Assembly (NCBI GenBank): GCA_903813345.2
Contig: CAIIXF020000009.1
Span: 11,774,030-11,838,029, forward strand
From: Owenia fusiformis
Taxonomy: Eukaryota > Annelida > Polychaeta > Sabellida > Oweniidae
Direction of reading: 5' to 3'
DNA: 64,000 bases
Position numbers and translations under genes: made by a program. Under the pieces are notes generated by a model. That model did not search any database. It saw only the letters and a program-made list of their open reading frames with translations, and had not been told where the DNA came from. How positions within the stretch are numbered: position 1 is the first letter of the stretch; the number at the start of each line of letters is the position of its first letter. Below are positions 40,064 through 51,960 of the stretch, piece by piece.

Positions 40064-40926
40064 TGTTGTAAGTTGTCATACAACCGATTCGAAAATTTAG
40101 TTTTATTGTTCGAGGAGGCATACCTTTTTCCTTTCGAAAGTCACAAAGATTTTGATCTGGGTTTTAACGGTGTCAGGTCGATAAACTAAAGTTTTTCATA
40201 TTGAAGTCAACGAACACTTTTTTAGTGCTATTGGCCAAATCAACGTTTTTGAATGAAGTATACGTGTTCTGACGTTGATGTAACCTGTTCCCAATAATTA
40301 CTATTTTGGGAAGTATATTTTTCTGCAATTATTACAAAGCATTGCATAACATAGGATGTTAATTAAGTTAATTAAAACATTTAGATATTAGGTTTCTAAG
40401 AAGCAATTATGTAATGTGCATATAAATCTGAAACTCAAGGCATGGCTTTTTACGGTCCCTTTTTACTGACAGCGCATTGAATCTAAGTGAATAAATATGT
40501 ATTTAAGTGCGTTTCTGTCATATTGTTTCAAGGAAGGCACAACGTTTTGCTTTTAAAGATATTGATTATATCCGAAAGTCCTTCATATTTTTAGATATGT
40601 AATATCTATTTCCAGAAGGGCATCAATTTTGGTAATTTAGTTGATAGTTGTGTTTCTTTACAACATTTACAGTAGTTGTGTTATATCAGTGTGACAAACA
40701 CATTAAGAGAAGTGCTTGTCAACTATTTGCATTTTATATTAAACAGATAGTATTTAGATTTACAACGTTTCGAAGAATTGTTCTTTTGCTTTTGTTGCAA
40801 TACGAGATAAGTTTGTATTAAGGTTTGCAAAGCATGGTGCTTTCCAGATATTATATTGTTCATCACAATAGTTTTAGAAGATCGTATGATTTTTGTAGTC
40901 CGGTCGTGTATTCTTGTGATAATCAC
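40064..40926. other. Non-coding stretch
   Basis: AT-rich, with no supported gene. It flanks the 850-bp palindrome. Confidence 0.5.
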
Positions 40927-48188: not shown

Positions 48189-48563
48189 GATCTCGCTCCA
48201 CTTAAATGCATCCTATCTCAGCATTCAAAGGAACATATATAAATTCAGAACCAGGGACATCATATTAATTGTGATATCGCTGTTTTCCGTTTCAAAAATT
48301 GATGTTCATCAGTCAAATTCAATGTGATGATCTTCGACCTTTTAAAAATACATTATCTTGGATACTAATCTGCATGTTATTTTGCGTTGTAAACTTTTAG
48401 AAAATTTTGAAACCGCCATTGAATGACCTTATTTGTCTGTTGATTTGACCAATCAGGGGCGATGTGAATTCTTAATACAGATTTAAAGTATAGACATATA
48501 TCTTCTCTGAACCCTTGCACTGGGGATGAACTGGAAACGAGGGAGGTTTTGCCTCGTATCAAA

Positions 48564-49754
48564 ATGGCGGCGTGTGAAAAAATTTCATTCGGTAAGATTT
48601 TTGTATTTTACAATTTTTGTGCTTTTACCCTTCAAATTAAAACTTAATATTTGGCAAGTAAATAGTTCATAAGTTCCGGTTTTATAATATGATTACAAAT
48701 TAGAAATCAATACTGGCATCGCTGAGATATTTACATATCAATTCTCTCACTTAGGAAACGAGGCATGTTTCTCAAGGAAACGAGGCAGCTATATAACATT
48801 CTTAAGAATGAAACGAGGCAACCTTACTTCCTGCGAAAGCTATTGGATTTTGATATAATAGCTTTCCCACGGAGCATTTGGACAGCTCAATGATCGTGAC
48901 CTTTGAAATCGAATTAAGTCGATCCGCGGCTTACATTTGGTCTCTAACTGTGTCTTACATCAGTATCATCAATCCGTGTAAGTATCGGAGCGCTGGAGTA
49001 CTTCTTTTTCGATCAAGACTTGTAATTGTTAGTCGAGTGAATCGTTTTACTGCCAAATTCCAATATGGCGGTTTCTGCTCGGACATTTTCGTAAATCTCC
49101 GGAGGTTGTCCGAACCTAACTAATTCTCAAAATTCATTTCGTTCGTTGCGTATCTCGCACCTAGCAAACCGCCATATTGGAAATAGGTCTAAAAAACTTT
49201 CACTCGATGAACAATTTACAAGTCTTGATCGAAAAAGAAGTACTCCAGCGCTCCAATACTTACACGGATTGATGATACTGATGTAAGACACAGTTAGAGA
49301 CCAAAAGTAAGCCGCGGATCGACTTAATTCGATTTCAAAGGTCACTATTGATGAGCTGTTCACTTCTCCGTTTGAGAGCCATAAGTTTCAAAATCTAACA
49401 TGGCTCTCGAACCGAGTAAAGGCAACCATATTTAATTAAAAATGTTTTGTTTTTATTACAGAACGGGGCCTACAAAAAGAAGCGTCCCTGTTCAAATGCT
49501 ATTTCTGTAACACAGGAAACGACAACATTGCTGATATTGTATTCCATATGATGCAACAGCATGATGGTAATCTCTCTGTACGGAAACGAACGTTAGATGA
49601 GAAAACAGGTTCATTTGTATACACGTCTCATAATTTTGGCGTTGCCATTGAACGTGTAAGAACGCTTAAGAAGGAAGGGCATACTGTGATGATAAATTCT
49701 GAAATTTTTGGGAGTGGTGACTTAGACCATGTCTTGAGACATCACCCGTTGTGA
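48564..49754 (+). CDS. Two-exon transposon-borne C2H2-type zinc-finger protein
   Basis: Exon 1 (48564-48591, MAACEKISF plus one base) ends at donor GTAAGA inside the left TIR. Exon 2 (49462-49754) follows acceptor TTTTATTACAG. The join G|AA keeps phase and yields a 106-residue protein. Residues about 22-43 read C-x2-C-x12-H-x4-H (FKCYFCNTGN...IVFHMMQQH), a C2H2 zinc-finger pattern. The remainder (NLSVRKRTLDEKTGSFVYTS..., ...VMINSEIFGSGD) is unrecognised and could be a small alpha/beta fold. The ATG sits in CAAAATGGCGGC, which also resembles a YY1 initiator site. A role in binding the GAAACGAGGCA iterons is a guess from context. It could also be a captured host fragment. Confidence 0.6.
48870..49370. 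mobile_element. 500-bp foldback element nested in the zinc-finger intron
   Basis: The arms 48870-49085 and 49150-49370 are inverted copies starting CGGAG...ACAGCTCA. Each carries a frame on the outward strand (IVTFEIELSRSAAY...), so similar 70-80-codon frames appear on both strands. Non-coding in my view. It may have been inserted in the TIR transposon. Confidence 0.75.
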
Positions 49755-49761
49755 ACACGCA

Positions 49762-50258
49762 TAACACCCCAGTCACATTTGTCGCACGGCGGACATAAGT
49801 CGACCGCAGAACAATTAAATCGGTGAATTTATGCGGCGAGCGTAGAAAAACTACGCTAGCCTTGCGGCCTCCGTACGGCGAGTGCAGATTTTTACAGACC
49901 GCGGGGAAGGCGTAGAAATTATAACTCGGAGTTATAATATTTGTTCATTTCTGAGGTCCCCATAGAAATCAACTGGCTCAACAAGATTGAATCATTATTT
50001 GTCAATATTTCACGATCACTTTTCATTTGATATTACATCCTAACACTATGAATAACATTTATAAATTGTCTTGATGTAAATAAAATGAAAAAAAGTAATA
50101 TTTATCAACAAAAATTTAAAATTCACCGTGCGGCTGCCGTGGGAAATGTGACTGCAAAAGTATGAGAGCGCAGAAATTCTACGGCAAGCGTAGAAAAGCT
50201 ACTGGCCGCAGAAATGATAGACCGCAAGGTCGCCGGAGGAAATGTGACTGGGGTGTTA
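49762..50258. mobile_element. MITE with TAACACCCCAGTCACATTT ends
   Basis: Perfect 19-bp TIRs (49762-49780 and 50240-50258). The interior is locally GC-rich, with repeated GTAGAAA.CTACG and CGGC words. It begins 7 bases after the zinc-finger stop codon. The 50123-50314 frame falls across the MITE and is rejected. Confidence 0.8.
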
Positions 50259-50559
50259 GTCATGCAATCGGTGTTAAATGGTGAGCGGTCTCGTTTAGGG
50301 GACCTGGGAGACATAGTCTAGTGTCTAAGCTTCCCCGAACCACCGTCAGTGATTATGTGACAGGTAGAGTATATTTAGTTGATCCTAGGATGATGACATT
50401 CGTGGTGTCACTCCTATTGTCATTTTTGTAGAGAAAGGCCGGACATCACGATCAAGTAGTGGATCTTGTCCTTACTTGTGAGTCACAGTAAGGGCCCAAG
50501 ATGTTTCGAACTCATGGTTGGTGGTCCATGATATGTTCTTCATCAGCAGCCTAATGAGG

Positions 50560-51030
50560 GGGAGGGGGATGGGTTGTCCCCGATTTGGTTTTGTTTTGGG
50601 ATTGTCTCCAGTTGGAGACAGTTAGTTGGGTACTAAGTAAATTGGTATCATAGTTTGGTTGTGTTTGTAGATTGTGCCTGATTGTGTTTAATAGTGTAGT
50701 TTAATTGATATAGTATTGGGTTGTGACTGACTCTGTTACGTTGGTTTGTGTCAGGTTGTGTTGTGATGATTCAACAATGGGTTGATTTGAATTTGGTCTC
50801 GTTGGCTATGTTGTATTGTGTTGGTTTGTTGTTTGGTTGTGCTCCATTGTGTTAGTTTGATAGTCGATTGTGTTTTGTTGGTGGTTGTTTGTCTGGTTGA
50901 GCCTGGTTGTGTTGTGTAAGTTTGGTATCGGGTTGTGTCTCATTAAGTTATGTTAATTTCAAAGTGGTTGTGTTATGTTGTAATTGTGTTGTGCTGGTCG
51001 GTAGCGGGTTGTGCCCAGTACGTCGGATTC
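50560..51030. repeat. G/T-rich low-complexity tract
   Basis: Strand-asymmetric sequence dominated by GGTTGTGTT and TTGTGTTGG words, almost devoid of A+C runs. It resembles a decayed microsatellite. Confidence 0.75.
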
Positions 51031-51440
51031 ATCCATGTTGTCTTGCTCTGAAAGATAAATGACCAGTGTAGCGCTTTATGAACAATATGGTTATTCTTTT
51101 TAACTCTTACATATATAATCATGTATATCGTGTAAAACGTAATCGGTCGTATGTGACCAGAACGGTGGAAATAAGATCATTAAATGTAGACACTATCACA
51201 GAAAGAATAGTTGCCTCGTTGCAAGTCAAACATTGCCTCGTTTCATTGTTACAAAATGTAGACAGGTGCCTCGTTTCCTAAGTGAGAGAATTGAAATGTA
51301 AATATCTCAGCAATGTCTGTATTGATTTCTAATTTGCAATCATATTATAAAACCGGAACTTATAAACTATTTACTTGCCAAATATTAAGTTTTAATTTGA
51401 AGGATAAAAGCACGAAAATTGTAAAAAACAAAAATCTTAC

Positions 51441-51468
51441 CGAATGAAATTTTTTCACGCGCCGCCAT
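51441..51468 (-). promoter_or_regulatory. Mirror copy of exon 1 in the right TIR
   Basis: On the minus strand the right TIR repeats ATGGCGGCG...TTCG followed by GTAAGA (MAAREKISF plus one base). No partner exon was found in that direction. It shows that the 5' gene end is part of the TIR itself. Confidence 0.6.
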
Positions 51469-51539
51469 TTTGATACGAGGCAAAACCTCCCTCGTTTCCA
51501 GTTCATCCCCAGTGCCTTGGTGTTTCTCCTTCTTCAATT

Positions 51540-51960
51540 CACTATTATCTAATTCGGAAATGTCATGATGTTATCATTAATCACTTTAAGTATTTTCAAG
51601 TAAATTGAAAGTATTTGTATACTTTTTCGTACTAGGACATCATGACATTTTGATACTAACGCGTGAAACCGCCATTGAATGACCTTATTTGTCTGTTCAT
51701 TTGACCAATCAGCGGCGATGTGAATTCTTAATACAGATTTAAATTATAGACATATATCTTCTCTGAACCCTGGGTGTTTCTCCCTCTTGAATGCACTATT
51801 ATCTAATTCGGAAATGTCATGATGTTATCATAAATCACTTTAAGTATTTTTAAGGTAAATTGAAAGTCTTTGTATACTTTTTAGTATTAGGACATCATGA
51901 CATTTTGATACTAACGCGTATACGACTGAAATAAAAATTGTTTATGCTTAAACAAAGTGT
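51540..51960. repeat. Local tandem duplication in P450 copy 2 intron 1
   Basis: The block TTCACTATTATCTAATTCGG...GACATCATGACATTTTGATAC occurs twice (about 51536-51662 and 51788-51913), separated by GAAACCGCCATTGAATGACC. Copy 1 has it once (36450-36560). Confidence 0.7.

Follow-up and report, generated by a model that had tools for sequence, protein, structure and literature searches.

An Owenia fusiformis transposon end that probably doubles as the first coding exon of a transposase-type gene

Can the mobile end of a DNA transposon also be the first exon of a gene carried between its ends? This question is raised by an element with terminal inverted repeats (TIRs), 2,997 bp long, at positions 48518-51514 of a 64,000-nucleotide stretch of the Owenia fusiformis genome (assembly GCA_903813345.2, contig CAIIXF020000009.1, forward-strand positions 11,774,030 to 11,838,029; the whole stretch is hereafter called the window). 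An earlier note, made from the letters alone, had proposed that each TIR holds a start codon, a mini-exon and a splice donor feeding a zinc-finger (ZF) exon. Based on the layout of this element and of its relatives in the genome, we consider it likely that the window holds a non-autonomous copy of a transposon family, here called F1, whose TIR is at once the recognition end, the promoter and the first coding exon of a transposase-type gene.

Both TIRs of the window element contain an ATG, a short coding stretch and a GTAAGA donor in the same phase, as the earlier note had it, with the correction that the 28 nt of the exon already contain the ATG. The left end reads ATGGCGGCGTGTGAAAAAATTTCATTCG followed by GTAAGA, and the right end, read inward, has CGT instead of TGT. 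Joined in phase 1 across the acceptor TTTTTATTACAG, which directly precedes position 49462, the left mini-exon and exon 2 encode 106 residues up to a TGA at 49752-49754 and include the pattern C-x2-C-x12-H-x4-H, exactly as had been read directly in the sequence. Exon 2 alone gave a poor predicted fold (mean pLDDT 54). The TIR arms (48517-48772 and 51260-51515) are 256 nt each and 95% complementary. The element sits inside a tandem repeat of about 254 bp (51515-51919); its left flank (48408-48515) is 97% like 51664-51771, these being copies of the repeat, and a sister copy (51756-51790, containing CTGAACCCTGGGTG) serves as a proxy for the empty site, one base off the predicted unfilled site. 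If one mismatch is allowed, five iterons are found at each end, two facing each other within the first ~45 bp and three in direct orientation, of which the two innermost are located outside the 256-bp arm; the iterons had been seen in both ends before and counted as three to four. Ten of the 11 iteron matches in the window lie in the ends of the element, against a mean of 0.53 matches expected by chance in the whole window.

Searching the genome (498 Mb) with the DNA of the ZF exon resulted in at least 40 scored matches including the window (40 scored of 245 rough candidates, two of the 40 being pieces of one element, L021), so that the search for other copies suggested earlier yielded 39 further scored matches. 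With the 106-residue protein, 71 matches were obtained at E <= 0.001, of which many are distant or contain stops. At the 15 other F1 loci compared, the left TIR is joined directly to the ZF exon. Exact 5-bp target duplications flank 15 of the 16 two-ended F1 elements, an element on C12 being off by one base, and 22 of the 24 two-ended elements of F1 and of two further families, F2 and F3, taken together; this count does not include an additional, unpaired end in L006 (3 mismatches) or an additional, fuzzy right-end match (5 mismatches) in the F3 copy on C1. The ATG..GTAAG arrangement is kept in 41 of the 48 F1 TIRs read, 40 times with 28 nt and once with 29 nt out of phase. Of the seven TIRs without it, two belong to a diverged line, one has lost the ATG, one has a truncated exon and three have lost the donor.

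The TIRs of F2 (L012-L016; ZF 38-43% identical in the search with the window protein) and F3 (L017 and L046-L052) differ in sequence from those of F1, and the CACTG start, the 5-bp duplications and the iterons are alike. In F2, a TIR of about 272 bp (CACTGGTGATCC...) holds the mini-exon ATGGCTGCTGTTCCGGCTGAAGAAATTG with the donor GTAAGAATTTT, followed by GTTACnGAAACG iterons and the ZF exon. In F3, the TIR CACTGCTACCCACC... holds the mini-exon ATGGCGGAACTTCCTCCGGGTCAAGGTTTCG with the donor GTAAGATTTTT, followed by TTACACTGACGAA iterons and a ZF exon that is whole in L017 and shortened or missing in the other F3 loci. Five of five F3 elements and two of three F2 elements have exact 5-bp duplications, the third F2 element having AAGCTT on both sides (6 bp). 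The mini-exon peptides differ (MAAREKISF-E in F1, MAAVPAEEI-E in F2 and MAELPPGQGF-E in F3); the ATGGC start, position, phase and donor agree, and in every family the phase-1 mini-exon could be spliced, with the frame kept open, to an exon with the homologous C-x2-C-x12-H-x4-H pattern. ATG and donor are kept in 10 of 12 F2 TIRs read (one with a stop) and in 12 of 13 F3 TIRs. When the ZF was aligned across five lineages down to 14% identity, the invariant columns were Cys, Cys, His, His and one Gly. As three families whose TIRs differ share this layout, and many copies share the ZF exon, the proposal of a mobile end that doubles as first coding exon gains support, and splicing from the TIR exon to the ZF exon is strongly suggested. 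The three families most likely form an undescribed group of cut-and-paste transposons.

Were the ATG and donor coincidental, the TIR would be non-coding and the ZF gene would start elsewhere. Such a reading would accommodate the five F1 ends of non-autonomous copies that have lost the ATG, exon or donor, the F1 end with the 29-nt exon and the F2 end with a stop in its mini-exon. It is nevertheless very unlikely, since three families with unlike TIRs have the mini-exon at the identical place and phase, and since 5000 dinucleotide shuffles per TIR produced an in-phase ATG...GGTAAG mini-exon in only 29 (F1), 20 (F2) and 29 (F3) cases, or about 0.5% per family; the families are related and hence not three independent draws, although their TIRs are unlike beyond the first bases. 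Gene capture by transposons is common, and the ZF exon might in principle be a captured fragment of a host gene. We find this scarcely credible, as a homologous ZF exon lies behind a like mini-exon at the identical place in F1, F2 and F3 and continues into a gene body in L017. A one-off capture is ruled out by the recurrence of the exon in three families. The features of the window element are collected in Table 1.

Table 1. Features of the window element (window positions)
Feature	Position	Strand	Remarks
Target-site duplication, left	48513..48517		CCTTG; adjoins element start
Left TIR	48518..48772	+	first letters CACTGGGGATGAAC; 95% complementarity with the right arm
Facing pair of terminal iteron-like sites	48534..48560		in left TIR
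Left mini-exon 1	48564..48591	+	ATG, 28 nt, MAACEKISF + G; donor GTAAGA at 48592
Three direct iterons, GAAACGAGGCA	48755..48820	+	starts 48755, 48777, 48810
Nested palindromic insertion	48824..49421		598 bp; GGCAACC duplication; inside intron of window copy
ZF exon 2	49462..49754	+	shared with other copies to about 49702-49705
Second probable nested insertion	49762..50258		19-bp perfect inverted ends TAACACCCCAGTCACATTT
Candidate right-end exon, weak	51018..51047	-	acceptor CTTTCAG; in phase with right mini-exon
Right-end direct iterons	51212..51277	-	51267, 51234, 51212
Right TIR	51260..51514	-	complementarity to left arm
Right mini-exon	51441..51468	-	ATG, 28 nt, MAAREKISF + G; donor GTAAGA at 51440-51435
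Target-site duplication, right	51515..51519		CCTTG; adjoins element end

Which gene, then, would the ZF exon belong to? In L017 (F3) the order is mini-exon, iterons, ZF exon (donor GTACGT), a small exon, a 190-residue frame and a 1,221-residue frame. Related long frames, about 26-31% identical to that of L017 by blastp, are found at C5 (1,467 aa), C11 (1,438 aa), C7 and C3, and the C-terminal part of L028 has nine genome matches at seven sites. A YqaJ domain scores over the cut-off of 22 bits in two of four relatives, L028 (31.5 bits) and L029 (39.7 bits). Three motifs recur in the long proteins: D-G-Q is invariant (5/5), D-x2-H is likewise invariant (3/3), and a closing S-E-x2-F is present in both proteins that reach it. 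Together they may be the triad of a DDE nuclease formed by the C-terminal part. For F1, the C12 element (C12:16806800-16848300; L053-L056 and L010) has F1 ends 40,999 bp apart, the flanks TATGA and CATGA and a ZF end inside, having grown to 41 kb via large nested insertions. Its positions el12 40216-40863 are 40.6% identical to the L017 protein (aa 15-231, E 6e-44), and this fragment runs into the F1 right end, of whose TIR ~136 bp are missing. F1's own gene was therefore of the L017 type, its course leading from the ZF end to the right end. In all likelihood, the ZF exon is thus the second exon of a transposase-type gene that belongs to the family itself. Among the identities proposed earlier for the 106-residue protein, the relic of an unfamiliar transposase fits best, given the L017 ZF exon in front of the 1,221-residue frame and the F1 gene fragment on C12; an accessory gene is not supported.

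Several results weigh against this assignment. The YqaJ region of L017 has no Pfam match at E <= 1 and that of L030 none at E <= 10, and L031 scores 17.5 bits, under the cut-off. For the C-terminal part, neither Pfam nor PDB gave a match that would identify a catalytic domain, and PF21787 (TNP-like_RNaseH_N) matched only one of 12 segments, at 18.7 bits against a cut-off of 24.6 (E 0.0022). The ~9.8 kb of L017 read on the downstream side of the long frame contained no right TIR, and 7.5-9.9 kb read at each of L028-L031 contained neither a TIR nor an in-phase CACTG-linked mini-exon, an ATGG..GGTAAG stretch in L030 being in another phase and without CACTG. No complete autonomous F1 copy was found. 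The Pfam and PDB sequence searches matched no known transposase, and TNP-like_RNaseH_N was absent from the remaining Pfam scans of long-protein segments. When the gene-body protein was compared with the 15 F1 loci and the window, the ZF was matched and a gene body was not; the C12 element is the one F1 copy in which part of the body was found.

The window copy, whose sequence is without a transposase gene body, is most likely an internally deleted, non-autonomous and twice-invaded F1 derivative; the 598-bp insertion in its intron is absent from all 15 other F1 loci compared. In the mechanism that we propose, a TIR of ~250-270 bp would at once provide the iterons by which the transposase recognises the end, the promoter and the first coding exon. 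Transcription from the left end would lead to translation from the ATG inside the TIR, and splicing at GTAAG in phase 1 would connect the mini-exon to the ZF exon and this to the body of the long protein, which would combine a YqaJ-type nuclease domain with a C-terminal domain, possibly a DDE nuclease. The ZF would recognise the ends through the iterons and the long protein would carry out catalysis. That this start and donor recur in the right TIR would follow from the similarity maintained between the two ends. Having lost the gene body and gained two nested insertions, the window copy would, if expressed, make just the 106-residue ZF peptide, and it would be mobile only in trans.

Whether that peptide is itself maintained can be judged from the other copies. 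None of the 39 other scored ZF-exon matches reaches beyond 49705, and therefore the last ~15 codons of the 106-residue protein are private to the window copy. Thirteen of the 40 rows extend to query position 266 (window 49705), seven to 220-221, two to 203, nine to 120 and eight to other positions, the window alone covering the remainder. These recurrent end points (for example at 120 and at 220-221) show that lines cut within the ZF exon have multiplied. Synonymous, non-synonymous and stop changes numbered 13/25/4 in F1 (28 rows; expected 10.8/28.9/2.3, P=0.26), 6/25/0 in F2 (7 rows; expected 7.8/21.7/1.5) and 1/8/2 in F3 (6 of the 8 rows, the two with 60 bases or fewer having been removed; expected 2.7/7.7/0.6). 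The purifying selection for which the earlier note had proposed to look was not seen in the ZF exon of any of the three families. Changes among the copies look neutral, which fits copies moved in trans and not a protein needed by each copy. The alternative of a maintained repressor or accessory protein of non-autonomous copies has a precedent in the KP repressor of small P elements (PMC7776569), and many copies keep the ZF exon stop-free (an in-frame stop occurs in the aligned part of just 4 of 28 F1 rows). It is unlikely, however, in view of indels not divisible by three in 5 of 28 F1 rows, the neutral-looking substitutions in all three families, the amplified sublineages cut inside the exon and the private tail.

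The start exon in the right TIR raises the question of a second gene. If both TIR start exons were used, a convergent gene would begin in the right TIR and share its first coding exon with the gene on the left. The right mini-exon of F1 can be joined, behind CTTTCAG (L065: CTTATCAG), to an open in-phase stretch of 44 nt (EQDNMDESDVQDINQ), which in L005 and L065 is followed by GTGAGT. In L007, L008, L021, L023, L024 and the window, the stretch is truncated or altered. Against a second gene, the donor of the 44-nt exon is ATGAGT in L020 and L064, no long right-hand frame was seen, and the other families offer little: among the F2 right ends, L015 stays open for 29 codons before it reaches a stop, L062 contains a stop, L063 is altered and L013 and L014 are without the stretch, and F3 right ends have no comparable exon. 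We therefore doubt that both start exons are used. A right-hand cassette that may start a second gene in F1 is kept as a lead; for F2 and F3, a right-end gene is unconvincing.

Target duplications are 2-3 bp in CACTA and 8 bp in hAT elements, and TTAA in Kolobok and piggyBac. The group described here is nearest to Transib/RAGL by its ends; no known superfamily fits, and none is assigned. The ends of RAGL elements are similar to the RSS heptamer; those of protostome RAGL start with CACT and have the consensus CACTWMCAAACKTYKBB (PMC7204232). The 5-bp duplications are common to both groups. However, the RSS-heptamer-like end or CACTWMCAAACK is unmatched here, where the ends are CACTGGGG, CACTGGTG and CACTGCTA and CACT alone is common, and the protein contains a ZF, together with YqaJ in two relatives. 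RAG1 (PF12940) had no match among 3 candidates scored in this genome, a negative that says little because none of 14 control genomes gave a match either, and the protein profiles A1 and A3 matched no RAG1 structure in PDB. As in P elements and THAP9, internally deleted copies could encode DNA-binding remnants, and one relative has the weak, sub-threshold TNP-like_RNaseH_N match; P elements, in contrast to the 5 bp seen here, have 8-bp duplications, and their TIRs are 31 bp (fly) or 13 bp (zebrafish) (PMC7776569). ISL2EU elements of the PHIS group also encode YqaJ, as a separate ORF beside a DDE/HTH/THAP transposase, with the target A/AT/T (AT duplication) and ends that are usually GG (PMC4482050), whereas here YqaJ, over its cut-off in L028 and L029 only, lies inside one long protein and the ends are CACTG with 5-bp duplications. 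The closest functional analogy for the TIR is MuDR/Mutator: the ~215-bp TIRs of MuDR hold the promoters of convergent genes, with start sites about +165 and just inside the TIR (PMC3440606). Unlike these, the TIR here also holds an ATG, a coding exon and a splice donor. The MULE transposase domain had no Pfam match in 13 segments, the catalytic part of F1's own gene not being among them.

Among the papers listed in searches of the open PMC literature, and in passages of PMC4482050, PMC3169594, PMC3903597, PMC7776569, PMC10045372, PMC3440606 and PMC7204232, no transposon with a start-codon exon in its TIR and no ZF-YqaJ transposase was seen; a paper outside those listed, a subscription paper or a Repbase entry may describe one. 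We tentatively suggest, with less than even confidence, that the elements represent an undescribed superfamily with CACTG ends, 5-bp duplications, one ZF-YqaJ-DDE-like protein, a TIR that is promoter and first exon, and derivatives that sow such cassettes. By its CAC ends and 5-bp duplications, this candidate superfamily would stand close to the RAG-like end types, with a YqaJ nuclease domain in the long protein of some members. If the recognition end contains the start codon of the transposase, the gene cannot be separated from that end, and every excised end carries its 5' exon. Derivatives down to F3 TIR-TIR miniatures of ~550 bp would then spread promoter, ATG and splice-donor cassettes in both orientations, TIR-only miniatures would retain an exon-trap cassette, and a DNA transposon would have a direct route for supplying host genes with alternative first exons and N-termini.

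Several further observations concern these families and their neighbors. F3 TIR matches form at least 16 facing pairs that are ~540-550 bp across (e.g. C8:17891861-17892407; 40 scored of 741 rough candidates); these are TIR-TIR miniatures that, judging by the alignments, match across the mini-exon at 95-99% identity. A diverged end type in L007 and L065 (CACTTGGGAT..., with ATGGATG or TTGGATG and without a GTAAG donor) is probably a further related family. Thirteen PF21787 matches in this genome are separate P-like transposase genes, none of them at the loci studied, and four of the 13 score equally (perhaps recent copies). The nested insertions of the C12 element include a putative gypsy-like LTR retrotransposon with a 1,237-residue frame, so named from the look of its sequence. 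A 180-residue frame in L014 (1712-2251, oriented copy, minus strand) resembles part of a mariner-type transposase, presumably nested in the F2 element. The second probable nested insertion of the window copy has a 93.8% copy at L020 6891-7391. In L019, an F1 element is inserted into another copy of the 598-bp palindromic insertion, and the window copy of that insertion shows the unfilled site, CTCTAACTGTGTC, of the L019 F1 insertion.

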